DNA of 64,000 nucleotides from an uncultured Porticoccus sp. (GTDB lineage Bacteria; Pseudomonadota; Gammaproteobacteria; Pseudomonadales; Porticoccaceae), in assembly GCF_913061305.1 (NCBI RefSeq), contig NZ_CAJXST010000002.1, forward strand, positions 186,001 through 250,000, read 5' to 3'. Positions 1,355 through 51,029 of this stretch are shown piece by piece; the stretch's first letter is position 1; the number at the start of each line of letters is the position of its first letter. The notes under the pieces were generated by a model. The model searched no databases. It saw only the letters and a program-made list of their open reading frames with translations, and was not told the DNA's origin. A program made the translations under genes and the position numbers.

Positions 1355-1453
1355 ATTTGTCTGGTTGAGGAACTGGGGGGAAAGCAGTGGTTGGCAAAAA
1401 ACTGAAAACCTGATTGAATAAACACAGGGTTTCCAGTCAGTCTTTATGTGACC

Positions 1454-1620: not shown

Positions 1621-1666
1621 TTGTCCTGTCCCGAAGGAGGGGGCGGACTCTCTGGAGCAGCAAGTC

Positions 1667-3214: not shown

Positions 3215-3219
3215 CGTTG

Positions 3220-4346: not shown

Positions 4347-4396
4347 GTGTCAGTCCCCGTTAAATGTCTAATCTGTTACCTGGTTCCCTTTAAAAT

Positions 4397-4412
4397 TGTG
4401 AACTGGTTCACA
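4397..4412 (+). promoter_or_regulatory. CRP/Vfr-type binding site upstream of the GGDEF/EAL gene
   Basis: The sequence TGTGAACTGGTTCACA is TGTGA-N6-TCACA, a perfect match to the CRP half-site consensus, with A/T flanks on both sides (AAAT upstream, TAAT downstream). It sits about 120 bp upstream of the diguanylate cyclase/phosphodiesterase start and 50 bp after rimI. The inference is cAMP-CRP (or Vfr-like) control of the downstream gene. A cyclic-nucleotide-binding protein is encoded at 56404 but is probably not the CRP orthologue. Confidence 0.6.
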
Positions 4413-4531
4413 TAATCGGCATTATCAGTGCCGTTTTATGCCCGTTCGTCGCCAATTTTCTTACTTGCGATCCTCTCTCTGCTGCAGACTCCTTAAAATA
4501 ATCATGTCGATTGATAAGGAAGTGGTCTGTT

Positions 4532-6874
4532 ATGGAAACGATGGCAAATGAGGCGGTACAAGCTGCCAAATTTGAAGTGGCTAAGCTGCTGTTGGAGAGA
4601 CTCCCGTTCTTCCTGGTGGTCACCTCTGGATTTTGTCTGATACAGATTTTCGCCTGGGGTGGATTTTCAATCTATTGGCCGGCTGGACTGTGGGTCCTCT
4701 ACAGCCTGGGAGTCATTGTGCCCGGTTGGTTGCTCATCCGAAGATTGTCTGTGACGTATGCGGTGGTTGGGATCAACCAGAAACTGGTTGAAGACATCAA
4801 CAATCTGGCCATTGTCCTGGCTTTCATGACGGGGCTGATCTGGGCCTTTGACAGTTTTGTTCAGTTTTATCTCAGGGAAGCAAATCAATGGCTGTATGTG
4901 TCCACGTTAGCGGCTATCGCCGTGATCAGCGCAGGCCTGCTCAGCTATAACCTCAAAGCTGCCCTGCTCGGGGCGGTAGTTATATTGCTGCCCTTGCTGA
5001 TCGAGGTCTCAATCGCGGGCAGTGGGGCCAATCTGTACTTTATGTGTTTTGTAGCAGGTACCGTTGCCGTACTGTATTTTGGATTGCGCCATCAACAGCG
5101 GACTCTGGAAAAAAACATCGCGCTTCGAAGCGAGGCTGAGGCGGCGCTAAAACAGCAGGAAGCGGCCAGCTACCTGCTTGAGCAGCACTGGCAAAATGCC
5201 CCGCTACCGGCCATTCAGTGGGATCGGCAGCAGCGGATAACCGGCTGGAATCTCAGTGCTGAAAAGCTGTTCGGTTATCCCGTGGCAGAGGTGTTGGGTC
5301 GTCAGGGAGATTTTCTGGTGCCCCCGGGATTGCGGGATTCGTTTCGCGATATGTGGCAGGCCCTGATGCGAAAGGACGAGCAGGGTTATTACACGGTTCA
5401 CGATGTCCTCGACAGGAACGGACAGATAAAAATATGCGAGTGGCATAATACGCCGCTGACAAAAGACGGCAAGCTGATCGGTGTTGCCTCCTTCATCAAG
5501 GACGTGACCTCGCAGATTGAGGATCGGGAAACCATCAAACGGCAGGCGACCTACGATAACCTGACCGCACTGCCGAATCGCAGCTGCATGATGAGTGAAC
5601 TGGGCGCCGCAATCTCACGGTCCCAGCGAAACAATCAATTCGGCGCTGTTATTTTTCTCGATCTCGATAATTTCAAGGATATCAATGACACCCAGGGGCA
5701 TCATGTGGGTGACATGGTGTTGCAGTTTTTTGCCGAGTTATTGCGGCAGGCCGTTCGCAAGGAAGATGTGGTCGCCCGCTTTGGCGGTGATGAGTTTGTG
5801 GTGCTGGTACAGGATCTTGGCACAAAAGCGACCAAGGCAAGGGCCAGAGTGCTTTCCATTGCCGATAAAATCATGGAACTGGGTAAAACGGTCTGCAAGC
5901 AGCGGGGGCTGGAATACGAGATCGAAGTCAGTGGCGGTATCGTGCTGTTTCAGGGTGATCGCTACTCGCCAAATGATCTGTTGAAGCAGGCCGACCTGGC
6001 GATGTATCGGGTGAAAAACTTTGGGCGCAAAGGGTTCAGTTTCTATGACGATTCTCTCGCGGTCGAGGCGGAATACCGGGTTAGCCTGATTCGCGAGCTG
6101 CGTCAGGGTGTTGAAAACAAGGAATTTGATTTGCACTTTCAGCCCATCGTCAATGCCGGTGGCGACATTGTATTTGCTGAATCACTGCTTCGCTGGAACC
6201 GACCCTCACAGCGTATTGTGGCGGCCAGTGAATTTATTGAATTCATGGCGACGTTGCCGATGATGAACGAAGTGGGCCTGTGGATTTTTGAAAGTGCTTG
6301 CGCCAATCTCCGGCAATGGATTGATGAAGGGCTTTGGTCAAATGACGGGGTGTTATTCGTGAATATCAGTCCAAAGCAGTTGGAGAATGAGCACTTTTCT
6401 GCCGATATAAGGAAGCTGATCAGTCAATATGCTATTGATCCTCACCAGCTGGTACTGGAGATTACCGAGGAAAGCCTGATTCATAACCTTGATGAGGTCG
6501 AGGGTCAGCTCCAGGATTTACTGGACCTTGGTTTGCGGATTGCACTGGATGATTTTGGCACCGGCTATTCCTCGCTGGCGATGTTACAGAAGTTGCCAGT
6601 GCACTTTGTCAAACTGGACCGGAGCTTTATTAACGATCTGGCTTCCTCGGAGAACACCTATTCCATTGTTAAAGCGGTTATCAAACTCTGTCAGATCATG
6701 TCCCTCGATGTGATCGCCGAAGGGGTTGAGACAGAAGAACAATACCGTATTCTCGCCGATCTGGGCTGTGACTACTTCCAGGGTTACTATTTCAGCAAAC
6801 CTGTGGAGGCCGGGCAATTCAGGTCGCTGGTCCGGTCTGCATCAGAGGATGTCCTGTCGCGGCTGGTTAACTAG
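4532..6874 (+). CDS. Membrane-anchored PAS-GGDEF-EAL c-di-GMP enzyme
   Basis: Predicted order: N-terminal membrane region with about five to six hydrophobic segments (residues 20-190), a PAS domain (about 215-325), GGDEF (about 345-505) and EAL (about 515-770). GGDEF is intact at 418-422, so diguanylate cyclase activity is possible. The EAL signature reads ESL (550-552). Other EAL catalytic motifs are present, including NISPKQL, the LEITEES glutamate, DDFGTGYSS (from D673) and EGVE. Phosphodiesterase activity is therefore plausible but not certain. The ATG at 4532 is chosen because AAGGAAG precedes it; a TTG lies seven codons upstream. A CRP-type site lies upstream. PAS sensing suggests control by redox, oxygen or a ligand; the signal is unknown. 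Confidence 0.88.
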   Translation: METMANEAVQAAKFEVAKLLLERLPFFLVVTSGFCLIQIFAWGGFSIYWPAGLWVLYSLGVIVPGWLLIRRLSVTYAVVGINQKLVEDINNLAIVLAFMTGLIWAFDSFVQFYLREANQWLYVSTLAAIAVISAGLLSYNLKAALLGAVVILLPLLIEVSIAGSGANLYFMCFVAGTVAVLYFGLRHQQRTLEKNIALRSEAEAALKQQEAASYLLEQHWQNAPLPAIQWDRQQRITGWNLSAEKLFGYPVAEVLGRQGDFLVPPGLRDSFRDMWQALMRKDEQGYYTVHDVLDRNGQIKICEWHNTPLTKDGKLIGVASFIKDVTSQIEDRETIKRQATYDNLTALPNRSCMMSELGAAISRSQRNNQFGAVIFLDLDNFKDINDTQGHHVGDMVLQFFAELLRQAVRKEDVVARFGGDEFVVLVQDLGTKATKARARVLSIADKIMELGKTVCKQRGLEYEIEVSGGIVLFQGDRYSPNDLLKQADLAMYRVKNFGRKGFSFYDDSLAVEAEYRVSLIRELRQGVENKEFDLHFQPIVNAGGDIVFAESLLRWNRPSQRIVAASEFIEFMATLPMMNEVGLWIFESACANLRQWIDEGLWSNDGVLFVNISPKQLENEHFSADIRKLISQYAIDPHQLVLEITEESLIHNLDEVEGQLQDLLDLGLRIALDDFGTGYSSLAMLQKLPVHFVKLDRSFINDLASSENTYSIVKAVIKLCQIMSLDVIAEGVETEEQYRILADLGCDYFQGYYFSKPVEAGQFRSLVRSASEDVLSRLVN

Positions 6875-6963
6875 ATTGGCCAACACATCAACTGTAGCGG
6901 TAAAGCGTGCACTGAATGACCGGGAACCGGTATAGTCACAGAGCATTTTTTACGAGGTGAACT

Positions 6964-7905
6964 GTGGACAAAATTCCGGTGGGAATCAGTGCCTGCCTGA
7001 TGGGCGATGAGGTGCGCTATAACGGTGGCCATAAGCGGGATGCCTATATCAATGGGACTCTGGCGGGCCACTTCAGTTTTCATCGATTCTGTCCGGAAGT
7101 CGGTATTGGTCTCGGTGTGCCCAGGCCTACGCTAAGGCTGATTGCCACAGATAATGCCGTCAGGGCCGTGCGCACAGAGGACCAGGCGTTCGATGTCACC
7201 GAGCAGCTGGTGAGCTACAGTCGGGAACAGTTTGCCGAGATCAGTCAATTATCCGGACTGATTCTAAAGCGGGATTCGCCAAGCTGCGGTATGGCCAGAG
7301 TCAAAGTGTATGGCACAGCCGGGGCCAGGCCAGAGGGTCGCGGAGTGTTTGCCCGCACGGTGATGGACCAGTTTCCCTGTTTGCCGGTTGAGGAAGAGGG
7401 CCGGTTGGGGGACCCGGGGTTGCGGGAAAACTTTATTCAGCGGGTGTTTATCTATCATCGCTGGCGAGCTGACTATTTTCCGGTGCTCAGTGTGCAGAAA
7501 CTCACGGATTTCCATGCCCGACACAAGCTGATCTTCATGAGTCACGACCAGAATCAGTGCCGGGAACTGGGTCGTATCGCGGCGCTTGCCCGCCCTGATA
7601 CCCTGAACGCGGTTGCCGCAGAGTACCTGTCACTGGCCATGACCAATCTGAAAAAAATCGCCACGCGTAAAAATCATTTGAATGTCCTTCAGCATATTCA
7701 GGGATATTTAAAAAAACAGCTTGATGCCGCAGACAAACAGGAGCTGATTGAAATATTCGAACGCTTCGAACGAGGTGAGCTGCCATTGATCGTGCCTGTT
7801 ACACTCCTGCAGCACCATTTTCGAAAATCCCCGGACGACTATATCAACCGGTCCTGGTACCTGAACCCCTACCCGGCAGAATTGCGCCTGATGAATCTGC
7901 TATAA
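6964..7905 (+). CDS. DUF523/DUF1722 two-domain protein (TudS-like plus YbgA-like)
   Basis: The N-terminal DUF523 domain (about residues 1-150) contains three conserved cysteines: C11 in SACLMG, C43 in the FCPE motif with E45, and C108 in SPSCGM. In thiouracil desulfurase TudS the equivalent residues hold a [4Fe-4S] cluster and a catalytic glutamate. The C-terminal half (about 190-300) matches DUF1722, the YbgA domain often found next to photolyase genes. The fusion is common in gammaproteobacteria. No photolyase gene lies next to it here. The start is GTG at 6964 with GAGG six bases upstream. The activity of the fused protein is inferred; the real substrate is unknown. Confidence 0.8.
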   Translation: MDKIPVGISACLMGDEVRYNGGHKRDAYINGTLAGHFSFHRFCPEVGIGLGVPRPTLRLIATDNAVRAVRTEDQAFDVTEQLVSYSREQFAEISQLSGLILKRDSPSCGMARVKVYGTAGARPEGRGVFARTVMDQFPCLPVEEEGRLGDPGLRENFIQRVFIYHRWRADYFPVLSVQKLTDFHARHKLIFMSHDQNQCRELGRIAALARPDTLNAVAAEYLSLAMTNLKKIATRKNHLNVLQHIQGYLKKQLDAADKQELIEIFERFERGELPLIVPVTLLQHHFRKSPDDYINRSWYLNPYPAELRLMNLL

Positions 7906-7922
7906 AATCGGGAAGTATGATC

Positions 7923-8150
7923 ATGAGCGACAGCAAATCACCAAAAATTCCCTATCGCCTGATTCTGCTGGATCTGGTGGGTGCCGTGCTGGCGGCGATG
8001 GGGATCCTGCAGCTGATTGAGGGGGGCGGTGTTGCCGCCTGGATCATGACAGTTGTGGGTTTTCTGTTGATGATGCCTCTGGTACTGGCGATTTTTCGTT
8101 TGCTGGCATCCCCGGGATCCAAACAGAATCACCATCGAGGAGATCGTTAA
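7923..8150 (+). CDS. Small two-helix membrane protein upstream of NfeD
   Basis: This 75-residue protein has two hydrophobic segments (about residues 12-32 and 37-58) joined by a short EGGG turn. A basic, polar tail (GSKQNHHRGDR) follows. The ATG at 7923 fits the GGAAG ribosome site seven bases upstream better than the ATG at 7917. Its stop codon overlaps the nfeD start (TAATG), so it is translationally coupled to the NfeD-SPFH module. No family is recognised; function unknown. Confidence 0.7.
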   Translation: MSDSKSPKIPYRLILLDLVGAVLAAMGILQLIEGGGVAAWIMTVVGFLLMMPLVLAIFRLLASPGSKQNHHRGDR

Positions 8151-8599
8151 TGGAGATTGTCTACTGGCACTGGCTGGTGTTGGGTATTCTGCTGGTGATA
8201 CTGGAGATCGTCGTACCCAGTTTCACCATCCTCTGGTTTGGTCTCGGCGCGGTCGTGGTGGGTGTGCTGTTGTGGCTGGTGCCGCAGTTGCCGATTGTGG
8301 GTCAGCTGTTGGTCTGGATTCTAGCTTCGGGCGGTTTCGCGCTGTTCTGGTTTAAATACCTGAAACCGCGAATGGTGGATAAAACCCTGGCCGGACTCTC
8401 CAGAGAGGCCGCCATTGGCGAGTCGGGCCGGGTCATAAAACTGCCGGTTGAGCACGGCCGGGGGGTGGTACGTTTTACCACACCGCTGCTCGGTGCCGAT
8501 GAATGGGAGTTTATCTGCGACCAGACGTTATCCCTGGGTGACCGGGTGTTCGTCAAGGAGTTTTCCGGTAATACTCTGGTGGTGGTGAAGCTCGATTGA
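8150..8599 (+). CDS. NfeD family membrane protein
   Basis: This 149-residue protein has an N-terminal membrane region of two to three helices (about residues 1-75) and a C-terminal soluble region (about 85-149) expected to form the NfeD OB-fold. The GESGRVIKLPVEHGRGVVRF segment is typical. This is the short NfeD form without the ClpP-like protease domain. NfeD proteins work beside SPFH/stomatin proteins in membrane quality control or microdomains, and an SPFH gene follows 60 bp downstream. Confidence 0.85.
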   Translation: MEIVYWHWLVLGILLVILEIVVPSFTILWFGLGAVVVGVLLWLVPQLPIVGQLLVWILASGGFALFWFKYLKPRMVDKTLAGLSREAAIGESGRVIKLPVEHGRGVVRFTTPLLGADEWEFICDQTLSLGDRVFVKEFSGNTLVVVKLD

Positions 8600-8657
8600 A
8601 TAACTGACCGGAATCGACCGGTTTGTGGAACGTTAACTGTTTTCCGGAGTGAGTGGC

Positions 8658-9509
8658 ATGGGTGGCACAGTTGTTGTTTTGGCAGTTCTGGTACTGCTGG
8701 TTATTACCGTTGGGCTGGGTGTCCGGATTGTGCCCCAGGGGAGCAAGCATGTGGTTCAGCGGCTTGGCAAGTTTCACAAAATACTGCCACCGGGACTGAA
8801 TATCATTATTCCCTATATCGATACCGTGGCCCATCGGGTTTCCACCAAAGATATCGTACTGGACATCCCCTCGCAGGAAGTGATCACCAAGGATAACGTG
8901 GTGATCGTCGCCAATGCCGTGGCCTATATCAATATCGTGGCACCGGAAAAGGCCGTCTACGGGGTCGAGGACTATGAGTTGGCGATTCGCAACCTGGTTC
9001 AGACGTCCCTGCGTTCCATTATCGGTGAGATGGATCTGGATGATGCGCTTTCCTCCAGAGACCAGATCAAGGCCAAGTTGAAAACCTCCATATCCGACGA
9101 TATTTCCGACTGGGGTATTGTGATGAAAACGGTGGAAATTCAGGACATCAATCCCTCCGGAACCATGCAGCAGGCCATGGAAGAGCAGGCCGCTGCCGAG
9201 CGCCAGCGCCGTGCCACCGTGACCCGCGCCGACGGCGAGAAAACGGCGGCCATTCTCGAAGCCGAGGGTCGGCTGGAGGCGTCTCGACGGGATGCCGAGG
9301 CCAAGGTCGTACTGGCAACAGCTACCCAGGAAGCGATCGAAAAAGTGACCGCAGGTATTCAGGACAAAGAATTGCCAGCGGTTTATTTGCTGGGTGAAAA
9401 ATACGTTGAGGCGATGCGTGAGCTGGCCGTCTCAGAGAATGCCAAGCTGGTGCTGTTGCCGGGTGATATTCCCGCTGCGGTCAGGGGGTTGATGAGTACG
9501 ACCAAATAG
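8658..9509 (+). CDS. SPFH/band 7 (stomatin-like, QmcA-type) protein
   Basis: An N-terminal membrane anchor (about residues 3-22) is followed by the SPFH domain, opening with the typical RIVPQGSKHVVQRLGKF. A helical segment rich in Ala, Glu and Arg (about 165-230, EEQAAAERQRRA) then drives oligomerisation. At 283 residues it matches bacterial stomatin/slipin proteins. They form membrane rings and assist proteases or microdomain organisation. The ATG at 8658 is preferred over GTG 8649, which overlaps the CCGGAG ribosome site. Pairing with NfeD upstream is the classical arrangement. Confidence 0.9.
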   Translation: MGGTVVVLAVLVLLVITVGLGVRIVPQGSKHVVQRLGKFHKILPPGLNIIIPYIDTVAHRVSTKDIVLDIPSQEVITKDNVVIVANAVAYINIVAPEKAVYGVEDYELAIRNLVQTSLRSIIGEMDLDDALSSRDQIKAKLKTSISDDISDWGIVMKTVEIQDINPSGTMQQAMEEQAAAERQRRATVTRADGEKTAAILEAEGRLEASRRDAEAKVVLATATQEAIEKVTAGIQDKELPAVYLLGEKYVEAMRELAVSENAKLVLLPGDIPAAVRGLMSTTK

Positions 9510-9628
9510 CCCGTCTGTGTAAAGGATTTCTGTCAACCGATTCTGTGCAAAAACGTTTTGTATGAATAAGGTTCGAACCTCTGCCATAGGAGCTGACGGG
9601 AGAAATGACTTTGGAGAACAGGACATTG

Positions 9629-10012
9629 ATGTTGCGACTACCACTCATTTTACTGTTGTCCGTCATAGCAGCGGGCTGTAGCAGTCAGCGCCAATCCGGT
9701 TACGGCGCATCGGACGGTATTATTATCGATACCCAGGGCGTAGACATGTCCTATTACCGCGCGGACCTTGACAACTGCCAGCGCTATGCTGCCGAGGTGC
9801 CTGTGGCGGAGCGAACGGCAACCTCCGCAGCAGGTGGTGCGGTGGTCGGCGGTGTTGTCGGGGCCATCGTCGGTGATTCCGGCACAGCCAAGAAAGGGGC
9901 CGGTGTCGGAGCCGTCACCGGTGCTATCAAGGGTGTGTCCTCCGGTAGCGCCGAACGTAAACGCGTGGTCAAGAACTGTCTGCGGGGCCGCGGTTATAGG
10001 GTACTGAATTAG
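9629..10012 (+). CDS. Glycine-zipper outer-membrane-type lipoprotein
   Basis: A short signal peptide (LPLILLLSVIAAGC) ends in a lipobox with the lipidated cysteine at residue 17, so a 127-residue lipoprotein is predicted. The centre has glycine-zipper repeats (AAGGAVVGGVVGAIVGDSG, then GAGVGAVTGAIKG) of the kind that insert in or span membranes in Rick_17kDa/SlyB-like proteins. The end (VKNCLRGRGYRVLN) is a frequent signature of this family. The ATG at 9629 gives a compact signal peptide; an ATG at 9605 would add eight polar residues. Function unknown; envelope integrity is a plausible guess. Confidence 0.75.
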   Translation: MLRLPLILLLSVIAAGCSSQRQSGYGASDGIIIDTQGVDMSYYRADLDNCQRYAAEVPVAERTATSAAGGAVVGGVVGAIVGDSGTAKKGAGVGAVTGAIKGVSSGSAERKRVVKNCLRGRGYRVLN

Positions 10013-10042
10013 CTGCCAGGATTTATTGATGTGGCGGATCCG

Positions 10043-10801
10043 TCAGGCAATCAGCATCAAGGGGTAAGGCAGTAAATCGGGCAGGTCGGCCAACTCCGTG
10101 GCCGACAGCTTTTCGAAGTTCATTTTTGACATCATGATCAGTGATCCTGCCGGTAGCCGCAGGTAGGGTAAATGTCCCGGATGAATGGATTTAACCCGCT
10201 GAAAATGCACTCTCACACCATCAACCGGCAGTTGGTCAGCAATCTCTGTGGGCAGCGCTGTTTCGCTCAACAGGGTGACATCCGATACCATCCCATTGAC
10301 CGCTAGCCGTCTCACTACCTCCAGTGCCCGATGAAATTGTGGGGACGCATCGTAAATCAGCACCAGTGGTTGGCTGGCTCGCGAGGATAGTCTTCGCGGG
10401 CGAGGTCTGGCCGAAGTACGGATCCGCCCCGGAAAAAAAATATCGTACCCCTCGTGGGATAATGCGCACGGCGCCAGCATCCCGCTCTCAATATGGAAGG
10501 TACAGGTCACCTGCTGTTGTGAAGATAACTGCTCCAGTAGTCGCTGTGCTCTGGATGACGCCATTTTGCTGGACCTGATCATGGCGTCTCTACCCAGCAA
10601 CCGCTCCTCGCCCGAAAGTCTGGAAATTTCTCGGGCAAAGGGCAACCCCGCCGCGGCCAGCAATCGACTGTCCTCGATATACAGGCCGGCGAGCGATGCG
10701 TTGAGCCATCTCGCCATGGTCACCAGTGACAACAGGCCAGCTTCGGTGACACTCAGCGCGTCCAGTGCGATTAAAATTCTGCGCTCAGTCTGCACGGTCA
10801 T
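10043..10801 (-). CDS. Universal-stress-protein-like protein, degenerate
   Basis: The start RRILIALDAL and the alternating beta-alpha pattern suggest a tandem UspA fold of 252 residues. The nucleotide-binding motif G-x2-G-x9-G-S/T is not visible in either half, and the ends read SLIMMSKMNFEKLS and PYPLMLIA. It may therefore be a non-ATP-binding scaffold. The ATG at 10801 overlaps the 3' end of the upstream Lon-like protease gene by 17 bp, so the two are co-translated and may act together in stress response. The USP call is inferred from fold-level resemblance. Confidence 0.6.
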   Translation of the reverse strand: MTVQTERRILIALDALSVTEAGLLSLVTMARWLNASLAGLYIEDSRLLAAAGLPFAREISRLSGEERLLGRDAMIRSSKMASSRAQRLLEQLSSQQQVTCTFHIESGMLAPCALSHEGYDIFFPGRIRTSARPRPRRLSSRASQPLVLIYDASPQFHRALEVVRRLAVNGMVSDVTLLSETALPTEIADQLPVDGVRVHFQRVKSIHPGHLPYLRLPAGSLIMMSKMNFEKLSATELADLPDLLPYPLMLIA

Positions 10802-41394: not shown

Positions 41395-44193
41395 ATGTCT
41401 ACATTAAACCAAACTCCCGAGCAACGGGCCCGCGACCGGATCGACTGGCAGCTGAGCGCGGCCGGCTGGGTCGTTCAAGACAAAAAAGCCATCAACTTTA
41501 ACGCGGCACCAGGCGTCGCCGTGCGCGAGTACCAGACCGATGTCGGCCCCGCCGACTATGTACTGTTCGTCGACAAACAGGCCGTCGGCGTGATCGAAGC
41601 CAAGCCGGAAGACTGGGGCCACAAGATCACCACCGTGGAAGACCAGTCCCAGGGCTATGCCAACGCCACCCTCAAATGGGTCAATAACAACACCCCTCTG
41701 CGCTTTGTCTACGAAAGCACCGGGGTCATCACCCGCTTCACCGATGGTCGCGACCCCAAGCCCCGTTCCCGTGAGCTGTTCAACTTTCACCGCCCGGAAA
41801 CCCTGGCAGAATGGCTGGTCCAGGGGCAAAGTAATCTGGGCACCCTGCGTACTCGCCTGCAACAGCTGCCGCCACTCAATACAGCCGGCCTGCGGGACTG
41901 CCAGATCACCGCCATCACCAACCTGGAAAACTCCTTCAGGCAGGATAAACCCCGCGCCCTGGTGCAAATGGCCACTGGCTCCGGCAAAACCTTTACTGCC
42001 ATCACCGCTACCTATCGGCTACTGAAGCACGCGGGTGCCAAACGCATTCTGTTTCTGGTGGATACCAAAAACCTCGGCGAACAGGCCGAGCAGGAATTCA
42101 TGGCTTTTCTGCCCAATGACGACAACCGCAAATTTACCGAGCTGTACAGCGTGCAGCGGCTCAAATCGGCTTTTGTCGCCACCGACACCCAAGTCAGCAT
42201 CAGCACCATCCAGCGCATGTACTCCCTGCTCAAGGGCGAAGAACTGGACGAGGCTACCGAAGAGGAAAACCCCGCCGAGCACGCACCGCTGCGCCGGGAA
42301 CCGCTGCCGGTCATCTATAACGAAAAAATCCCGCCGGAATTCTTCGACGTTATCGTCATCGACGAATGCCACCGTTCCATCTACAACCTGTGGCGGCAGG
42401 TGATCGAATATTTCGACGCCTACTTGATCGGCCTTACCGCCACCCCGGACAACCGCACCTACGGCTTTTTCAATAAAAACGTGGTCAGCGAATACGATCA
42501 CGAAAAAGCAGTGGCCGACGGCGTTAACGTGGGTAACGAGATTTACGTGATTGAAACCGAAAAAACCCAACAGGGTGGCACCCTCACGGCCAAACAGCAG
42601 ATCGAAAAACGCGAGCGTCTGACCCGCAAAAAACGCTGGGAAATCCAGGACGAAGACGACACCTACACAGCCAAACAGCTGGACCGCGACATCGTCAATC
42701 CCGACCAGATTCGCACCGTGATCCGCACCTTCAAGGAAAAACTGCCGGACATCTTCCCCTGCCGCAAAGAAGTCCCCAAAACCCTGATCTTTGCCAAAAC
42801 CGACAGCCACGCCGATGACATTATCAATACCGTGCGTGAGGAATTTGGCGAGGGCAACCAGTTCTGCAAGAAGGTGACCTACAAAATCGAGGAAGACCCC
42901 AAATCCGTGCTCGCCCAGTTTCGCAACGACTACTACCCGCGCATCGCCGTGACCGTGGACATGATCGCCACCGGCACCGACGTCAAACCGCTGGAATGCC
43001 TGCTGTTTATGCGCGATGTCAAAAGCCGCAACTACTTCGAGCAGATGAAGGGCCGCGGCACCCGCACCCTGGATGCCGACAGCCTGAAAAAAGTCACCCC
43101 TTCAGCCACCAGTGCCAAAACCCACTACGTGATAGTGGATGCCATAGGCGTAACCAGATCTCTCAAAACTGCCAGCCAGCCGCTGATTACCAAACCCGGT
43201 GTCTCCCTGAAAAACCTGGCCATGGGTGTGATGATGGGGTCGGCCCGGGATGAGGACAGCGTCAGCTCGCTGGCGGGCCGCCTGGCCCGGCTGGACAAGC
43301 AACTGGACGACCAGGACCGCGCCCGCATCAGTGAAAAGTCCGGCGGCAAACCGCTGCTGCTGATTGTGGGCGAACTGCTCAACGCCATAAACCCGGATAC
43401 CGTCGAGCAAAAAGCGTTGCAAATCGCCCGGCAACCGGAAGGCCTCGACCCCGGTGACAGCGCCCGCGATCAGGCCCGCGAGCAACTGGTGGGCCAGGCC
43501 GCCAACGTATTTACCGGCGAGCTGGTAGAGCTGATCGACAGTATCCGCCGCGATAAGGAACAAACCATTGTCCACGACGACCTGGACAGCGTCACCCGCG
43601 CCGAGTGGGACGGAGACACCACCGAAAACGCCAGGGCACTAACCCAGGAATTTGCCGATTATTTGCGCGAACACCAGAACGACATCGACGCACTCACCAT
43701 CTACTTTCAAACCCCGGCCCGCCGCGCCGAAGTCAGCTACCAGATGATCAAATCCCTGCTCGACCAACTGCGCCAGGATCGACCCAAGCTCGCCCCCCAG
43801 CGTGTCTGGCAAGCCTATGCCCATCTGGATGGTTATTACGAAAAAGGAGGGCAGCGCGAAACCCCCATCAGCGACCTCACCGCACTGGTGGCGCTGATCC
43901 GCCGTGTCACCGGGCTGGACAGTACCCTCTCAACCTACAACAACACCGTGCGCCGCAACTTCCAACGCTGGATTCTGCAACACCACAGCGGCGCTGGCGA
44001 AAAATTCAACGAGGCACAAATGGCCTGGCTACACATGATTCGCGATCACATCACCAGTTCCTTCCATATGGAGCGCGACGACCTGGAAATGGCCCCCTTC
44101 GATGCCAAGGGCGGCATGGGGAAAATGTACCAATTGTTTGGTGAACGGATGGATGCGGTGATTGAGGAGCTTAATCGGGAGTTGGTGGCGTGA
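41395..44193 (+). CDS. hsdR: Type I restriction enzyme, R subunit
   Basis: This 932-residue motor-nuclease subunit has an N-terminal PD-(D/E)xK nuclease with Asp54, Glu68 and Lys70 (VIEAK). SF2 helicase domains have Walker A ATGSGKT (193-199), DECH (323-326) and the later helicase motifs (RGTRTLD). The C-terminal region matches the EcoEI_R_C type, suggesting a type IB-like enzyme. It translocates and cuts unmethylated DNA in complex with HsdM and HsdS. Its stop overlaps the hsdS start (GTGA). The hsdM gene is not adjacent but 5.3 kb downstream. Confidence 0.95.
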   Translation: MSTLNQTPEQRARDRIDWQLSAAGWVVQDKKAINFNAAPGVAVREYQTDVGPADYVLFVDKQAVGVIEAKPEDWGHKITTVEDQSQGYANATLKWVNNNTPLRFVYESTGVITRFTDGRDPKPRSRELFNFHRPETLAEWLVQGQSNLGTLRTRLQQLPPLNTAGLRDCQITAITNLENSFRQDKPRALVQMATGSGKTFTAITATYRLLKHAGAKRILFLVDTKNLGEQAEQEFMAFLPNDDNRKFTELYSVQRLKSAFVATDTQVSISTIQRMYSLLKGEELDEATEEENPAEHAPLRREPLPVIYNEKIPPEFFDVIVIDECHRSIYNLWRQVIEYFDAYLIGLTATPDNRTYGFFNKNVVSEYDHEKAVADGVNVGNEIYVIETEKTQQGGTLTAKQQIEKRERLTRKKRWEIQDEDDTYTAKQLDRDIVNPDQIRTVIRTFKEKLPDIFPCRKEVPKTLIFAKTDSHADDIINTVREEFGEGNQFCKKVTYKIEEDPKSVLAQFRNDYYPRIAVTVDMIATGTDVKPLECLLFMRDVKSRNYFEQMKGRGTRTLDADSLKKVTPSATSAKTHYVIVDAIGVTRSLKTASQPLITKPGVSLKNLAMGVMMGSARDEDSVSSLAGRLARLDKQLDDQDRARISEKSGGKPLLLIVGELLNAINPDTVEQKALQIARQPEGLDPGDSARDQAREQLVGQAANVFTGELVELIDSIRRDKEQTIVHDDLDSVTRAEWDGDTTENARALTQEFADYLREHQNDIDALTIYFQTPARRAEVSYQMIKSLLDQLRQDRPKLAPQRVWQAYAHLDGYYEKGGQRETPISDLTALVALIRRVTGLDSTLSTYNNTVRRNFQRWILQHHSGAGEKFNEAQMAWLHMIRDHITSSFHMERDDLEMAPFDAKGGMGKMYQLFGERMDAVIEELNRELVA

Positions 44194-45710
44194 ACGAAAA
44201 GGAAGAATTATGGAAAATTCCGAAATCATGGCGCTGGTGTGCCATAAAAGATCTTGGCGCTGTAATTGCTGGCGGCACACCAGCGAGCAAAGAACCCTCG
44301 TATTGGGGTGGGAGTATCAATTGGATTTCTCCGGCAGATCTGACTGGATACAGAAGTAAAACAATATCTAGAGGTGCGAAATTTCTCACTGAAAAGGGTC
44401 TGAAAAACAGCTCAGCCAAGGTCATGCCTGTGGGGAGCGTGCATTTTTCTTCAAGAGCACCAATTGGTTATGTGGCTATTAGCTCAGAACCCATGTCGAC
44501 GAATCAGGGGTTCAAAAGTCTAGTCCCGTCGGAGGACGTGTTTAATGAGTACGTATACTACTACTTAAAGGGTTCAAAACAACTAGCAGAAAAGCGAGCT
44601 AGTGGTACGACGTTTCTCGAGCTTTCTGGCAAGGCTTTTGGCGCACTTCCGATTCCATTGCCTCCGCTTGAAGATCAAAAGCGCATCGTCGCCAAAATAG
44701 AAACCCTATTCTCCGAACTGGACAAAGGTATTGAATCCCTAAAAACCGCCCGCGAACAGCTCAAAGTCTACCGCCAGGCCGTCCTCAAACATGCCTTTGA
44801 AGGCAAACTCACCGCCCAGTGGCGTGAGGAAAATGCCGATAAGCTAGAGTCACCGGAACAACTCCTCACCCGCATTCAGCAGGAACGCGAGGCTCACTAC
44901 CAGCGACAACTGCAAGACTGGCAAACCGCCGTCAAGGCGTGGGAGAAAAACGGCAAAGAAGGGAAGAAGCCGGGGAAGCCCAGGGAGCCAAGCGTACCAG
45001 ATGCTTTGAATGCTGAACATATTTCAAGAATGTGGGATATACCTCGAAATTGGTGTTGGCTTCAAATTGGTAAATTCAGTTTTGTGACAAAGTTGGCTGG
45101 TTTTGAATACACCAAGTTTGTCACATATGATGAGGACGGCGACCTCCCGGTCATCAAAGCCGAAAATGCTGCTTTACACGGCTTCAAAGTCACCGCCTAT
45201 TCGAAAGTAAAATCATCCTCGGTTGCGAGCCTGACTCGTTCATTCCTTACTGGCGGCGAGTTGCTTATGGTGTTCGTCGGCGCAGGTACAGGGAATGTAG
45301 CCATCGTTCCATCTAATCAAAAATACTTTTTAGGCCCTAACATAGGGATGATCAGGGTCGAAAGTGAAGCGATTGAGTCACGTTACGTTGAGTTATTCCT
45401 CCGATCACCCATTGGAAAAGACCTCACTTTGGCAGCGGTGAAGGCTGTCGCACAGCCTTCACTTTCAATGGGAACGATCAGACAGATACCGATTGCTATT
45501 CCGGATATAAATGAGCAGCACAAAATAGTCAGCGAGCTAGAGCACTATCTGTCAATAATTGAAAACTCTGAAACCGAAATTAGTGCCAACTTGGTGGCGT
45601 CCGAAACCCTCCGCCAATCCATCCTGAAAAAAGCCTTCTCCGGCCAGCTCGTCCTGCAAGACCCCAACGATGAACCTGCCAGCGCATTGTTCGAACGCAT
45701 CCGAAACTAA
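44190..45710 (+). CDS. hsdS: Type I restriction-modification specificity subunit
   Basis: This 506-residue protein has two target-recognition domains (about residues 1-165 and 265-430). Each is followed by a coiled-coil spacer (KRIVAKIETLFSELDKGIESLK, and the C-terminal EHYLSIIENSETEIS). The TRD coding parts (44220-44680 and 45020-45600) are visibly more AT-rich than the spacers, consistent with recombinational exchange of specificity. The start is GTG overlapping hsdR. The stop codon directly abuts the terminal repeat of the mobile element beginning at 45711. The recognised DNA sequence cannot be predicted. Confidence 0.93.
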   Translation: MNEKEELWKIPKSWRWCAIKDLGAVIAGGTPASKEPSYWGGSINWISPADLTGYRSKTISRGAKFLTEKGLKNSSAKVMPVGSVHFSSRAPIGYVAISSEPMSTNQGFKSLVPSEDVFNEYVYYYLKGSKQLAEKRASGTTFLELSGKAFGALPIPLPPLEDQKRIVAKIETLFSELDKGIESLKTAREQLKVYRQAVLKHAFEGKLTAQWREENADKLESPEQLLTRIQQEREAHYQRQLQDWQTAVKAWEKNGKEGKKPGKPREPSVPDALNAEHISRMWDIPRNWCWLQIGKFSFVTKLAGFEYTKFVTYDEDGDLPVIKAENAALHGFKVTAYSKVKSSSVASLTRSFLTGGELLMVFVGAGTGNVAIVPSNQKYFLGPNIGMIRVESEAIESRYVELFLRSPIGKDLTLAAVKAVAQPSLSMGTIRQIPIAIPDINEQHKIVSELEHYLSIIENSETEISANLVASETLRQSILKKAFSGQLVLQDPNDEPASALFERIRN

Positions 45711-46072
45711 AAAAGGTGTCGGAGGGATTAAACCCTGACCACTGACCAACCCGGTTGATTTGCTATTATTCTCTGAACATCAATATAAACTACTGCCAGG
45801 CATCGCAAGGGAGTTGCATATGCCGCGACGCACACGGATGTATCTACCGGGATTGCCGTACCATCTAACCCAGCGCGGCAATAATCGGGAGGCTTGTTTT
45901 ATTGAGCCGGACAACTATCAGTACTATCTCGAACTCTGGCAAGAGGTGGCCAGGCGCTATGGTGTGGCCGTCCATGCCTATTGACTCATGACCAACCATA
46001 TCCACTTTCTAGTCACCCCGCAGTCACCCACGGCCATTTCCAATACCATGAAAGTGGTAGGCAGCCGCTACA
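45711..46072 (+). mobile_element. Truncated IS200-like/RAYT element, copy A
   Basis: It begins with the left terminal repeat (45711-45732, core AGGTGTCGGAGGGATTAA) one base after the hsdS stop. It then matches copy C (47663 onward) closely through the first part of the transposase, up to GGCAGCCGCTA at 46060-46070. There it is cut off and joined directly to the left end of copy B. Relative to copy C it has a 7-bp insertion (ACTGACC) near 45750. No right terminal repeat remains. Confidence 0.85.
45820..46072 (+). pseudogene. RAYT-type transposase fragment (copy A)
   Basis: The frame opens MPRRTRMYLPGLPYHLTQRGN, typical of REP-associated tyrosine transposases (Y1, HUH superfamily). It is interrupted by TGA at codon 55 (45982-45984), continues in frame with LMTNHIHFLVTPQ (the HUH motif HIH), and ends at VVGSRY where the copy is truncated. 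The tyrosine-bearing half is missing, so it cannot encode an active enzyme. The same TGA occurs in copy C. Confidence 0.85.
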
Positions 46073-46264
46073 AAAAGGTGTCGGAGGGATTAAATTCTGA
46101 CCAGCCCGGTTGGTTTGTCTATTATTCTCTGAACATCAATACAAACTACTGCCGGGCATCGCAAGGGAGTTGCATATGCCACGACGCATACCGGATGTAT
46201 CTACCAGGATTGCCGTACCATCTACCATCTAACCCAGCGAGATTTAATCCCTTCGACACCTTTT
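46073..46264 (+). mobile_element. 192-bp MITE-like derivative of the RAYT element, copy B
   Basis: Left (46073-46094) and right (46243-46264) 22-bp terminal inverted repeats differ by one base. They enclose the element leader and about 65 bp of degraded transposase start, with a frameshift after ATGCCACGACGCAT and a duplicated TACCATC. It has both ends but no coding capacity, the structure of a non-autonomous element that could be mobilised in trans. It lies directly against the broken end of copy A. Confidence 0.8.
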
Positions 46265-46390
46265 CGCTATGTTCGAGTTCATTAAATCAAAATGCCCCCG
46301 TGCTGATGAAGCATCGTAAATTTTGATGTGTCTGGTGTAGAAGCAAGCCATGCAGGTACACTATTCAAGTCACCAAACTGAGATGATCCC

Positions 46391-46855
46391 ATGAACTTTG
46401 ATCAGTTAACCGATAAGGACATTGACGACCTGATCAAGCTGCCCAAGCGGATCAGTAATCCGTCTGCACGGTGGCAGGAAAAGCCGGGGCACAAGCAGCG
46501 GAATTTCAACATCGTTGCCGAAAATCATTCCTTTACGGTGTATCAGCGCCAGAACCTGTTCGATGACAAGGATTTTTCCTGTGGCCTCAAAGTGATAAAA
46601 CCGGACGGACAACCTCTGACGCTGCTACGATATAATGGCGGTGGTCATATACATGGCGATATCCAGTTCGCCTGCCATATTCACAGTGCTACAGAAAAGG
46701 CGATACTCGCGGGAAGGAAACCGGAATCCCATGCTGAGGCAACGGCTCTATATCGAACTTTGGAAGGCGCTTTGGCCTGTTTGTTGGAAGATGCCCGTAT
46801 TCGTGGGCTAAGTAATGTAAAGAAGGATGAGCCCGATCTCTTCGAGTCCGAGTAG
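46391..46855 (+). CDS. DUF6978 family protein of the RM-embedded cassette
   Basis: This 154-residue soluble protein resembles the DUF6978 family (my recognition is moderate). A helical start (TDKDIDDLIKLPKR) leads to a beta-rich core with FTVYQRQNLFDDKDFSCGLKV and RYNGGGHIHGD, then a helix-rich acidic tail ending DEPDLFESE. The conserved-looking His/Asp cluster HIHGD and later CHIHS could be catalytic or metal-binding, but no activity is known. It is 11 bp upstream of the DUF1828 gene and surely co-transcribed. The position inside a type I RM locus suggests a defence or toxin-antitoxin role (inference). Confidence 0.7.
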   Translation: MNFDQLTDKDIDDLIKLPKRISNPSARWQEKPGHKQRNFNIVAENHSFTVYQRQNLFDDKDFSCGLKVIKPDGQPLTLLRYNGGGHIHGDIQFACHIHSATEKAILAGRKPESHAEATALYRTLEGALACLLEDARIRGLSNVKKDEPDLFESE

Positions 46856-46866
46856 GGGGTGCCGAC

Positions 46867-47649
46867 ATGATCGAACAATTGAACGAACAGAGGTTATGCG
46901 AGCAGTTTTGCGCCCAGGTTCGGCTGCATCGCCGCTCCAATGGCATGGTGATGCTAGAGACCCCCTTTGCCTACCCTGATGGAGATCAGTATCCGCTGTA
47001 CCTCAGTGATACCACGACGGGTGGTCTGAGGGTTAGTGACGGCGGCCACACCCTGATGCACCTGAGCTATGAGAACGACGTTGACAAGTTTTTTGAAGGC
47101 TCAAGAGCGCAGCTTTGGAGCCAGGTCACGGCGGAACAAGGTGTGAGCTATGACGAGACTAATGGGCAGTTCTGGCTGGAGTGTGCACCGGCGGAACTGG
47201 CTATCAGTTCCTTTCGTCTCGGCCAGGCCATCACCCGCATTTATGATCTGACTTTCTTGAATCGTTCACGGGTGGCAAGCACCTTCTACGAAGATCTCCA
47301 GGAACAGCTTCTGTTGCTGGTCTCCGAAGACAGGGTTCACAAAGATTATTCAGTACCCGGCATTCCCAATGCGGAAAATTATCCTGTGGATTTCTGCCTG
47401 GATGGCCGTAACAACATGCCTGTTTTCCTGTTTGGCATTCCCAACCGGGACAAGGCACGATTGGCCACGATCTTCCTACAGTACTATCACCAGCATCAAA
47501 TAGATTTTGATTCGCTGCTGATATTTGCCGACCAAAAGGATATTCCCCGCGCTGATCTCGCTCGGTTGTCCAATGTGGGTGGCGAAATGATTGCTTCGCT
47601 GAATGCGGAGGATGACTTCCGGCGCAAATTGCTGCGCAAAGTGGCTTGA
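46867..47649 (+). CDS. DUF1828/DUF1829-type protein of the RM-embedded cassette
   Basis: This 260-residue soluble protein has an N-terminal part (about residues 20-110) matching DUF1828, with METPFAYPDGDQYPLYLSD followed by GGLRVSDGGHT as the diagnostic pattern. The rest (about 120-255) fits the DUF1829-like partner domain. No nuclease or ATPase motif is obvious, although a restriction-nuclease-like fold has been discussed for such small domains and cannot be excluded. It forms a two-gene unit with the DUF6978 gene, followed within 14 bp by the left end of element copy C. Confidence 0.7.
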   Translation: MIEQLNEQRLCEQFCAQVRLHRRSNGMVMLETPFAYPDGDQYPLYLSDTTTGGLRVSDGGHTLMHLSYENDVDKFFEGSRAQLWSQVTAEQGVSYDETNGQFWLECAPAELAISSFRLGQAITRIYDLTFLNRSRVASTFYEDLQEQLLLLVSEDRVHKDYSVPGIPNAENYPVDFCLDGRNNMPVFLFGIPNRDKARLATIFLQYYHQHQIDFDSLLIFADQKDIPRADLARLSNVGGEMIASLNAEDDFRRKLLRKVA

Positions 47650-47662
47650 TTCAGCAAAGGCG

Positions 47663-47684
47663 AAAAGGTGTCGGAGGGATTAAA
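47663..47684 (+). repeat. Left terminal inverted repeat of copy C
   Basis: A 22-bp terminal repeat (core AGGTGTCGGAGGGATTAA) identical to the left ends of copies A (45711-45732) and B (46073-46094), and inverted relative to 48467-48488 with one mismatch. Confidence 0.85.
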
Positions 47685-47765
47685 CCCTGACCAACCCGGT
47701 TGGTTTCTCTATTATTCTCTGAACATCAATACAAACTACTGCCAGGCATCGCAAAGGAGCTGCAT

Positions 47766-48464
47766 ATGCCACGACGCACACGGATGTATCTACCGGGATT
47801 GCCGTACCATCTAACCCAGCGCGGCAATAATCGGGAGGCTTGTTTTATTGAGCCGGACAACTATCAGTACTATCTCGAACTCTGGCAAGAGGTGGCCAGG
47901 CGCTATGGTGTGGCCGTCCATGCCTATTGACTCATGACCAACCATATCCACTTTCTAGTCACCCCGCAGTCACCCACGGCCATTTCCAATACCATGAAAG
48001 TGGTAGGCAGCCGCTATGCCCGATACATCAATCTGCGCTATAAACGCACAGGGACGGTGTGGGAGGGACGACACTACTCCAGTTTGATCCAGTCCGAAAA
48101 ATATCTGCTGATCTGCCATCGCTACATCGAGCTGAATCCTGTCAGGGCCGGCATGGTGGTTCGACCGGAAGAATATCGCTGGTCGGGCTATGGCGCGAAT
48201 GCCTGGGGGGATGAGAGTTTGCTCAAGCCGCATGAAGAATATTTGATGCTGGGTTTGGATATCGAGTCACGCTGCCATGCCTATCGAGAATTATTTCAAC
48301 ATCAGCTAGGCGAGGCCGATTTGCATCGTGTCCGTAAAGCGGCACACTATAGCCAGCCGGTAGGTGATGATCGGTTTCGGCAACAAATAGAACAGCAATA
48401 CGGAATCAAGCTGGGCCAGGCGAAACGGGGGCGACCAAAGAAAAGGAAAGATGGGGTTGGTTAA
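47766..48464 (+). pseudogene. RAYT-type transposase with in-frame TGA (copy C)
   Basis: The 233-codon frame has the full architecture of a REP-associated tyrosine transposase: MPRRTRMYLPGLPYHLTQRGN, then the HUH motif in LMTNHIHFLV, then SRYARYINLRYKRTGTVWEGR and ELNPVRAGMV. Codon 55 is TGA (47928-47930), exactly where relatives often have Cys or Val before LMTNH. An ATG two codons later (47934) could restart a 176-residue protein containing the HUH histidines but lacking the first strand. The same TGA in copy A shows it predates duplication. Inactive, readthrough, or reinitiation are all possible. Confidence 0.75.
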
Positions 48465-48466
48465 GA

Positions 48467-48488
48467 TTTAATCCCTCCGAGACCTTTT
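48467..48488 (+). repeat. Right terminal inverted repeat of copy C
   Basis: The 22-bp inverted complement of the left terminal repeat (TTTAATCCCTCCGAGACC then TTTT), with one mismatch. It begins two bases after the transposase stop codon. Confidence 0.8.
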
Positions 48489-48529
48489 AGAATCCGACAC
48501 CTTTTAGAATCCGACACCTTTTAGAATCC
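48482..48529 (+). repeat. Three tandem copies of a 17-bp unit at the element edge
   Basis: ACCTTTTAGAATCC occurs at 48482-48495, 48499-48512 and 48516-48529, giving a 17-bp period (ACCTTTTAGAATCCGAC). CCGACACCTTTT inside it is the reverse complement of the outer 12 bases of the element left end. It may be a slipped or repeated insertion scar. It sits just upstream of the RhuM-Fic start. Confidence 0.8.
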
Positions 48530-48555: not shown

Positions 48556-49524
48556 GTGAATGATATTGTGATTTTTGAGACTGAAAACCAGGCAGTGGAA
48601 GTGCGCCTGGAGAGTGAAACCTTGTGGTTAACACAAAAGCAAATGGGTGAGTTATTTGCCACGACTCCTGAAAACGTGCTGATGCACCTGAAAAACATAT
48701 ATAAAGACAATGAGTTAGATAGTGCGTCAACTGCTAAGGATTTCTTAGTAGTTCGACAGGAGGGCGCTCGTCAGGTTAAGCGCAACCTGATTCACTACAA
48801 CCTCGACGCCATCATTTCGGTTGGTTACCGGGTCAATTCCACCCAGGCCACACGTTTCCGCCAATGGGCCACCCGGGTGCTGCGCGAGCACCTGACACAG
48901 GGTTACAGCCTTAACGAACACCGGCTGGCGCAGCAGGGACTAGCCGAGTTGGAGCAGGCGGTGGATTTGTTGGGCAAGACACTCATGCGGCAGGAGTTGG
49001 TGACCGACATCGGGCGTGAGGTGGTGGGGCTCATTCTGCGCTACTCCAGGACCTGGCGTTTGTTGCTGGATTACGACGAGGGCAGGCTGAGCATTCCCGC
49101 TGGCGCACAACCGGCGCGTGGTGTATTGCGGCTGGAGGAGGCTCGCCGGGCGCTGGATGCGCTGGCCGGAGAATTGCGTCAGCGCGACGAGGCCAGTGAG
49201 CTGTTCGCCCGCGATCGGGGCGAGGGGCTGGCGGCGATTCTGGGTAATATCGAACAGACCATGTTTGGCGAACCGCTGTACAAAACCCGTGAAGAACGCG
49301 CCGCGCATCTGCTTTATTTTGTGATCAAAAACCACCCGTTCTCAGATGGCAATAAACGCTCCGGGGCATTTTTGTTTCTGCTCTACCTGCGTCAGGAGGG
49401 AATGCGCCTGACCCTGGATGAAAACGGTCTGACGGCACTGACGCTGCTGATCGCCGAGAGCGATCCCAAGGCCAAGGATCTGATGGTACGGCTGGTGATG
49501 AACCTGCTGGGCCCTAATACCTAA
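48556..49524 (+). CDS. RhuM-Fic/DOC fusion protein
   Basis: This 322-residue protein has an N-terminal RhuM-type domain (about residues 1-110, ETLWLTQKQMGELFATTPENV, then YNLDAIISVGYRVNS) and a C-terminal Fic/Doc domain (about 170-310). The Fic motif is complete, HPFSDGNKR (260-268), so AMP or other nucleotide transfer onto a target is plausible. Such RhuM-Fic proteins are often found inside type I RM operons. No obvious antitoxin-like inhibitory motif ([S/T]xxxE[G/N]) was identified. The start is GTG at 48556 with AAGGA upstream. It lies directly upstream of hsdM (14-bp gap), so the two are co-transcribed. Confidence 0.88.
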   Translation: MNDIVIFETENQAVEVRLESETLWLTQKQMGELFATTPENVLMHLKNIYKDNELDSASTAKDFLVVRQEGARQVKRNLIHYNLDAIISVGYRVNSTQATRFRQWATRVLREHLTQGYSLNEHRLAQQGLAELEQAVDLLGKTLMRQELVTDIGREVVGLILRYSRTWRLLLDYDEGRLSIPAGAQPARGVLRLEEARRALDALAGELRQRDEASELFARDRGEGLAAILGNIEQTMFGEPLYKTREERAAHLLYFVIKNHPFSDGNKRSGAFLFLLYLRQEGMRLTLDENGLTALTLLIAESDPKAKDLMVRLVMNLLGPNT

Positions 49525-49538: not shown

Positions 49539-51029
49539 ATGAGCACTGCCCCTATCATCTCCAAAGTCTGGAGTTTCTGTACCACCTTGCGCGACGATGG
49601 GGTGGGCTATGGCGATTATCTGGAACAGCTCACCTATCTGATCTTCCTGAAAATGGCGGATGAGTATTCCAAACCTCCCTACAATCGCGATGTGGGCATT
49701 CCCGAGCAGTACCGCTGGCAAAGTTTGAAAAACAAGAAAGGTGCCGAGCTCGAAGTACTGTATGTGGAGCTGCTGCGTGCGCTGGGCACCCAGAAAGGTA
49801 TGCTCGGCCAGATATTCACCAAAGCGCAAAACAAAATCCAGGATCCGGCCAAGCTCTACCGGCTGATCGATATGGTGGACAGCACCCAGTGGGCCACCAT
49901 GGGTGCGGACGTGAAAGGGGATATCTACGAAGGCCTGCTGGAGAAGAATGCTGAGGATACCAAGTCCGGTGCCGGTCAGTACTTTACCCCGCGGGCGCTG
50001 ATCCGTGCCATGGTGGAGTGCGTGCGTCCGGAGCCAAAAAAAACCATTGCTGACCCGGCTTGTGGTACCGGTGGTTTTTTTCTGGCGGCCTATGATTTTC
50101 TGACTGATCCAAATCACTACAAGTTGGATAAGGCGCAAAAAACTTTTCTCAAACATGAAACTTTTTATGGCAACGAGATTGTCGCTAATACCCGTCGCAT
50201 GTGCCTGATGAATATGTTCCTGCATAACATCGGTGAGATTGACGGCGATTCGCTGGTGTCGCCCAACGATGCTCTGGTGGCCGTCAGCCCGCAGAGTTTC
50301 GATTATGTGTTGGCCAATCCGCCGTTCGGTAAAAAAAGCTCAATGAGTTTTACCAATGAAGAGGGCGAACAGGAAACCGACGATCTGACCTACAATCGGC
50401 AGGATTTTTGGGCCACGACCTCTAACAAACAGCTGAATTTTGTGCAGCATATCCGCAGCATGTTGAAGACCACTGGCAAGGCGGCGGTGGTTGTTCCCGA
50501 CAACGTATTGTTTGAGGGGGGTGCGGGTGAAACCATCCGTAAAAAGTTGCTGGAAAATACCGACCTTCATACCATTTTGCGTCTACCCACTGGCATTTTT
50601 TACGCCAACGGCGTGAAGGCCAATGTTTTGTTTTTCGATAACCAGCCAGCGAGCCCAAAATCCTGGACAAAAGAAGTCTGGTTTTACGATTACCGCACCA
50701 ATGTCCATCACACCCTCAAGAAAAAGCCGTTGCGCTTTGCTGATCTGGCCGAATTTATTCAGTGCTATAACCCGGAAAATCGACACCAGCGCAAAGCTAC
50801 ATGGCATGCCGAGAAAACCCCGGAAGGCCGCTGGCGCAAGTATAGCTATGAAGAGCTGGTGGCCCGCGACAAGACCAGTCTGGATCTGTTCTGGCTCAAA
50901 GATAAAAGTCTGACTGACCTCGACAACCTGCCCGAGCCGGACGAGCTGGCCGAAGAAATTATCGAGAACCTGGAGGCGGGTTTGAACAGTTTCCGTGAAG
51001 TGTTGACGGGGTTGAATCAAAAAGCATAA
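49539..51029 (+). CDS. hsdM: Type I restriction-modification methyltransferase subunit
   Basis: This 496-residue N6-adenine methyltransferase has an N-terminal helical HsdM domain (about residues 8-140), SAM-binding motif I DPACGTGGFF (from D172) and catalytic motif IV NPPF (260-263). It modifies host DNA and, with HsdR and HsdS, forms the restriction complex. The gene is last in the island, 3.8 kb after hsdS, separated by the mobile elements, the DUF6978-DUF1828 pair and the RhuM-Fic gene. It may depend on the RhuM-Fic transcript or its own promoter, which matters because M must be made to protect the genome. Confidence 0.95.
   Translation: MSTAPIISKVWSFCTTLRDDGVGYGDYLEQLTYLIFLKMADEYSKPPYNRDVGIPEQYRWQSLKNKKGAELEVLYVELLRALGTQKGMLGQIFTKAQNKIQDPAKLYRLIDMVDSTQWATMGADVKGDIYEGLLEKNAEDTKSGAGQYFTPRALIRAMVECVRPEPKKTIADPACGTGGFFLAAYDFLTDPNHYKLDKAQKTFLKHETFYGNEIVANTRRMCLMNMFLHNIGEIDGDSLVSPNDALVAVSPQSFDYVLANPPFGKKSSMSFTNEEGEQETDDLTYNRQDFWATTSNKQLNFVQHIRSMLKTTGKAAVVVPDNVLFEGGAGETIRKKLLENTDLHTILRLPTGIFYANGVKANVLFFDNQPASPKSWTKEVWFYDYRTNVHHTLKKKPLRFADLAEFIQCYNPENRHQRKATWHAEKTPEGRWRKYSYEELVARDKTSLDLFWLKDKSLTDLDNLPEPDELAEEIIENLEAGLNSFREVLTGLNQKA

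Follow-up and report, generated by a model that had tools for sequence, protein, structure and literature searches.

A DUF6978-DUF1828 gene pair placed beside restriction-modification genes and phage repressors as a candidate phage-defence module of the PDC-M24 kind

The adjacent genes A (DUF6978-like) and B (DUF1828) probably constitute a module of the PDC-M24 kind that provides phage defence by abortive infection and is carried as cargo of restriction-modification (RM) operons and of the repressor side of prophages; we put the probability of this reading at roughly 0.55. The two genes are tightly paired in a common order, diverge in a correlated manner, and occur beside RM genes and on the repressor side of prophages, and the model of B has two domains. 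The pair was analysed in a 64,000-nt stretch of DNA (the window), and coordinates are window positions unless a locus is named. An earlier note on this DNA had taken the pair for an undescribed module. PADLOC-DB v2.0.0 already lists it as PDC-M24A/PDC-M24B, 'phage defence candidate (PDC)' being the term for such entries (PMC11514479), and this listing as a defence candidate is one reason for our reading. We found no paper on PDC-M24 or the A-B pair in a search that covered few subscription papers and no bioRxiv preprints, and mentions of DUF1828 and DUF6978 in the accessible literature text are table entries. New here are the partner rule, the placement beside RM genes and repressors with a control, the architecture of B, and the B relatives that have other neighbours.

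In the window, A and B lie on a common strand with an intergenic gap of 11 bp (ORF list of the window), between hsdS and hsdM of a type I RM operon whose hsd genes share their strand (Table 1). Here open reading frames and Pfam agree, and the description of a two-gene unit inside a type I RM operon stands. A RhuM-Fic gene, absent from the earlier note, occupies the hsdS-hsdM slot as well, between the pair and hsdM. The G+C content is 49.7% for A and 52.2% for B versus 56.2% for the window. The DNA of the pair was not found in 57 other relatives searched, including 16 genus mates, which marks the locus as accessory. Two operons with an hsdM 73-76% identical carry a Fic-like or an AlbA/Schlafen-like gene in the hsdS-hsdM slot (names by eye). 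The slot therefore appears to be a site of variable cargo, which supports the reading of A-B as cargo of RM operons.

Table 1 Features of the A-B locus in the window and slot genes of two related operons
Feature	Position	Strand	Basis and assignment
hsdR, host type I RM operon	41395..44193	+	Pfam EcoEI_R_C, ResIII
hsdS	44190..45710	+	Pfam Methylase_S
Partial RAYT copy (about 45711-46070) and further RAYT fragment (46073-46224)	45711..46224	+	Repeats D1, D2, inverted ends; genome search
Gene A	46391..46855	+	ORF, 154 aa; DUF6978-like; candidate effector
Gene B	46867..47649	+	ORF, 260 aa; DUF1828; candidate control or sensor subunit
Full-length RAYT element	47663..48488	+	Inverted ends; Pfam Y1_Tnp on 47934-48464
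RhuM-Fic gene	48556..49524	+	Pfam RhuM and Fic; PADLOC PDC-S23
hsdM	49539..51029	+	Pfam N6_Mtase, HsdM_N
Slot genes in related type I operons	L156 11676-12782; L157 3834-5489		Fic-like or AlbA/Schlafen-like

RAYT sequence is present on both sides of the pair, as the earlier note had seen, but its two copies of one transposable element are unequal: a partial copy and a further fragment precede A-B, and a full-length element follows. A 300-nt direct repeat within them is 97% identical, and a genome search found RAYT matches within this genome only at the A-B locus. The transposase frames of both main copies (45820-46330 and 47766-48464) share an in-frame TGA at an identical point, between HAY and LMTNHIHF, so that both copies appear broken alike. 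Among the compared loci, L075 alone had a RAYT match. A composite transposon is doubtful, as the copies are unequal, broken and matched only at this locus in the genome; of the proposed exchangeable cassette, what remains supported is a mobile defence-type module. Immediately past the full-length element, three head-to-tail TCCGAGACCTTTTAGAATCC-like copies are spaced by 17 bp (48476-48529).

A single scan with the B profile and fixed peptide patterns yielded 68 genome loci from several phyla. A was located directly upstream of B in 59 of these, which makes the pairing more than chance, and 55 of 58 measured A-B gaps ranged from -20 to +20 bp. The fairer test of pairing is a search through A alone. 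It found B directly downstream in 40/40 viral contigs, a set that includes near-copies, and adjoining A in 11/11 genomes with a strong A, among 398 genomes searched at phylum level and 369 at class level; this constancy is one reason for treating A-B as one module. The weak A match of G261 (E 9e-4) was left out of this count, and four A-first genomes (G013, G112, G475 and G771) are probably the same genomes as loci L031, L033, L036 and L092. All four phage records matching A also match B, and in G137 both genes have decayed. Among the 398 phylum genomes, B was matched in 12 and A in seven (one A weakly). The distances within A and within B correlate, with a Mantel r of 0.87 (63 loci) or 0.78 (53 genome loci) and 0/2000 permutations as high. 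This correlation shows joint descent, not contact, and the test does not distinguish a shared history of the two genes from the history of their hosts. From 96 distinct-locus rows, six A and four B sequences were left out of the fold alignments (length, stops, contig ends), which include identical A or B sequences once.

RM genes occurred in 25 of the 68 genome loci, within 3 kb in 24 of them, and in 0/40 control stretches; both counts were made with nine RM-subunit models derived from the same loci and the window, and the 25/68 leans on these. For the controls, positions were picked by hand in 17 genomes that consist of a single contig and belong to the window's phylum; the loci come from several phyla, and many end at contig ends. 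Pfam scans of the flanking genes, which are independent of the RM models, agree: N6_N4_Mtase was matched in 9 of 55 upstream genes and ResIII in 8 of 44 downstream genes, one of 45 (2560 aa) having been dropped. This excess over the controls, together with the Pfam scans, argues for our reading. In eight loci, A-B is placed between mod and res genes of a type III-like system (L032, L037, L041, L043, L045, L046, L047 and L050), with one more gene between A-B and res in L037 and an interrupted A in L046; L073 has B alone between mod and res. Type I loci are L027, L028, L030, L035, L090 (A and B both broken) and the window, and MmeI-like loci are L031, L033, L054, L062, L064 and L066. The fetched region also contained RM genes in 7/11 A-first genomes (G000, G013, G068, G112, G254, G542 and G663), with mod 4.2 kb away in G542 and G663 called from a single HsdR match (82 bits). 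A tree of 82 B proteins requires no fewer than 14 changes of the state 'in an RM locus', given 24 RM-labelled rows, with L044 and L048 (mod gene seen) kept as 'other', viral-contig rows labelled prophage by origin, and SH-aLRT as the sole support measure. The most distant B rows in this tree come from viral contigs.

A cI-type gene was present in 10/68 genome loci versus 1/40 controls. In at least 34/40 viral contigs, a cI-type gene on the same strand lies upstream of the pair and ends no more than about 1.6 kb from it; this is the slot of RexAB and BstA, which again favours the defence reading. Pseudomonas phage 5399 has the order cI, an 84-aa gene, A and B, and in Lactobacillus prophage Lj965 the pair is flanked by the repressor side and the integrase and lies close to a gene with the annotation superinfection exclusion. 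By the models used, 33/68 loci had neither RM nor cI genes, and this counts against our reading. The 135 neighbour genes scanned (of 146), from 30 of these 33 loci, were mostly ordinary and gave few defence matches, such as AriA, AbiLi, type IIG and EcoO109I. The pairing and the recurrent placement by RM genes and repressors favour a mobile two-gene module of defence type, in partial support of what the earlier note had proposed, and these 33 loci weaken it. A distribution mostly over core loci was not seen in the genome survey, though many neighbours in the 33 loci are ordinary.

The match of A to Pfam DUF6978 (PF22398), its only Pfam match, is weak (24.9 bits, under the curated cut-off of 29.6); a HipA-like kinase was not found in A. 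The protein matches phrog_27326 at 1.5e-39. Residues K19, S63, H96, H98 and A115 are invariant in the 67 aligned rows, while H86 is kept in 65 and H88 in 63, and the histidine clusters may have a catalytic or metal role. The predicted structure of A (pLDDT 93.9, pTM 0.87) consists of a helix followed by a series of mostly antiparallel-looking strands. Searches of PDB and BFVD with this fold gave no weighty match (Foldseek best E 0.095 and 0.03), a VIA fold search reached a best Z of 5.9 with no confident relative, and sequence searches of the PDB with A and B returned nothing convincing. Taken together, structure and sequence searches gave no match of A to a known effector, which, with the lack of a match to TumE, speaks against our reading. 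The TumE-like toxins (PF20126) look like A by eye, both having an R-Y-N/D stretch followed by HxH; hhalign gave a probability under 1% with small profiles, and the comparison thus does not support this candidate. The locus L128 contains a TumE-family gene followed by an HTH-like gene (1477-1857, minus strand), and its stretch YSLH...LVRYDN...HRH resembles A by eye, with no statistical support. A BECR-type toxin fold was also considered for A. Genes of 164-173 aa with an H...HxH motif as in A precede distant DUF1828 proteins in L115 (2270-2764), L116 (1950-2471) and L119 (951-1448), where the A profile found no match; the effector family may extend beyond DUF6978.

B matches DUF1828 (PF08861) at 6.1e-15 and phrog_5059. 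Firmicute B relatives match DUF1829 as their C-terminal domain; no DUF1829 match at E up to 0.1 was found in window B. The predicted structure (pLDDT 90.5, pTM 0.52) resolves two domains, whose relative arrangement is unsure given the pTM. The C domain (residues 133-260) is modelled as a PD-(D/E)XK core fold, with PspGI (Z 10.0, 3.0 A over 122 residues), Can2 (Z 9.6) and BsoBI (Z 9.0) as matches. The stretch aligned to residues 181-200 is missing [DEQ]xK in 76/80 B rows, while D143 is kept in 75/80 and D175 in 78/80, and the domain is modelled as having this fold without its usual catalytic motif. For the N domain (residues 11-133), the uncharacterised protein 3cxj gave Z 9.1 and seven secretion-chaperone entries gave weak matches at Z 6.9-7.7, in a range (Z under 8) that can reflect a common arrangement; a secretion-chaperone-like domain is tentatively suggested. 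Foldseek with B gave no match at E 0.001 or better, and this blank and the weak N-domain match both count against our reading. The fold search of both proteins, which had been proposed as a check, has in sum provided a PD-(D/E)XK fold for the C domain of B and no PDB match for A.

B occurs without an adjacent A in 9/68 loci. L061 and L093 end at contig ends, L089, L094 and L075 are partial B matches, and full-length B without adjacent A is found in four loci, L035, L029, L052 and L073. In L035, B (89% identical) follows an AAA-type ATPase and an S8 protease (S8 also by Pfam) and precedes a GIY-YIG-like gene, a macro-domain gene and hsdM; in L029 (73%) it follows a HigB-HigA-like pair and in L052 (53%) a PIN-like gene, these names being read from translations. 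The B of L073 is 44% identical. The L035 genes form part of a dense defence-like run (1278-10424) before the same hsdM type, comprising a large ATPase, AAA, S8 protease, B, GIY-YIG-like and macro-domain genes (names by eye). A genome search found no A anywhere in the genomes of L035, L029, L073, L089 and L094; that of L052 carries, on another contig, an A interrupted by one in-frame stop. Four genomes first read as lacking A have a divergent A-like gene before B, recognised by profile in G147 (1.4e-6) and by an HxH motif (by eye) in G167, G051 and G074. Window B and L035 B are under purifying selection (omega 0.044 and 0.062), the only pair for which dN/dS was obtained, the others being saturated. 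Since the L035 genome is without A, B appears to be of use on its own, whereas no A lacking B was seen.

How might the pair work? In the preferred reading, A would be the effector, a small enzyme that uses its conserved His/Arg/Lys residues and whose target might be RNA or nucleotides. The N domain of B would hold A inactive, and its catalytically degenerate nuclease-fold domain would sense infection. Infection, or inhibition of the adjoining RM enzyme as for PrrC, could then free A, which would stop the cell before phage release. An effector role for A and a control or sensor role for B are what we infer from the coupling to a possibly chaperone-bearing partner, the small conserved effector candidate and the placement by RM genes and repressors, all of which would fit a gated abortive infection. 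With A preceding B, a toxic A would mean that the toxin gene comes first, which counts against this reading.

Part of this evidence would also suit a plain toxin-antitoxin addiction module, with A as toxin and B as antitoxin; such a module would stabilise RM islands and prophages and play no antiviral part of its own. A was never seen without B in 51/51 finds through A, B occurs without A in the nine loci above (four of them full-length), and the occurrence is mobile and patchy; however, the purifying selection on B shared with the A-less L035 genome and a repressor-side placement typical of exclusion genes make this explanation unlikely. Alternatively, B might be an active or cofactor-dependent nuclease that attacks phage nucleic acid directly, with A as its targeting or licensing partner. 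The matches of its C domain to PD-(D/E)XK enzymes and the retention of D143 and D175 would fit, but the [DEQ]xK motif is missing in nearly all rows, and we consider this distinctly unlikely.

Two further explanations, both highly improbable in our view, each start from one of the two genomic settings. The tight insertion of the pair between mod and res genes, or within hsd operons, could point to an accessory or regulator of RM enzymes, involved in expression timing or subunit assembly; yet the pair is also common in prophages and where no RM genes were detected, and it accompanies three different RM classes. Conversely, the strong phage association and the origin of the most distant B rows from viral contigs could indicate a superinfection-exclusion or lysogeny-control pair that hosts took up by chance and that has no defence role outside prophages, but copies embedded in RM loci, only short gaps away from the RM genes, occur in several phyla. 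A housekeeping or metabolic pair is unsupported, given the absence from the 57 relatives, the patchy occurrence in 398 genomes and the varying neighbours.

Beyond the PDC-M24-kind module that we favour, a broader and doubtful possibility is that B-type proteins are a general control subunit, in which a chaperone-like domain and a dead nuclease-fold sensor would arm exchangeable effectors. Coupled to RM, such a unit would be a PrrC-like second line that fires upon restriction block and is common to type I, type III-like and MmeI-like systems. Its effectors, just as speculatively, might include A, HigBA-like and PIN-like proteins, the S8 protease and, for DUF1829 relatives, a HipA-like kinase. 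If true, three RM classes would have one common embedded backup module, the way in which bacteria guard restriction against anti-restriction proteins could be examined in a system of just two small genes, and a function would be assigned to DUF6978 and DUF1828. Read more modestly, the results turn an entry in a candidate list into a module for which a partner rule, structural models and a favoured genomic location are available.

Among known systems, PDC-M24 has the same adjacency, with A before B. Window B matches the M24B models (3.7e-14 and 1e-13), whereas window A matched no M24A model at E up to 1 and B lacks DUF1829; this counts against our reading and suggests a diverged branch of PDC-M24. 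Phage relatives of A do match M24A (1.2e-8 to 3.7e-21; the nearest is 42% identical to window A), and phage relatives of B match M24B. HipAD/DS-6, a validated two-gene system that protects, combines a HipA-like kinase with a DUF3037-DUF1829 protein (PMC13092281). It is likewise a two-gene unit, and its partner's DUF1829 is found also in Firmicute B relatives, which supports the defence reading; its effector, however, is a kinase and not DUF6978, and window B matches neither DUF3037 nor DUF1829. RexAB and BstA, located downstream of cI in prophages (PMC8585504, PMC12894663), resemble A-B in being downstream of cI on the same strand, a comparison by place only. In toxin-antitoxin-chaperone modules, which have a SecB-like chaperone (PMC5105189, PMC6377645, PMC11618068), a chaperone-like part would gate a toxic effector, as may hold for A-B, whereas B would fuse a tentative secretion-chaperone-like fold to a nuclease fold. 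Finally, PrrC (EcoprrI) is embedded in a type I hsd operon and acts when the RM enzyme is challenged (PMC3874165); A-B is also embedded in a type I RM operon, but Pfam (E up to 0.1) shows no PrrC-type domain in either protein.
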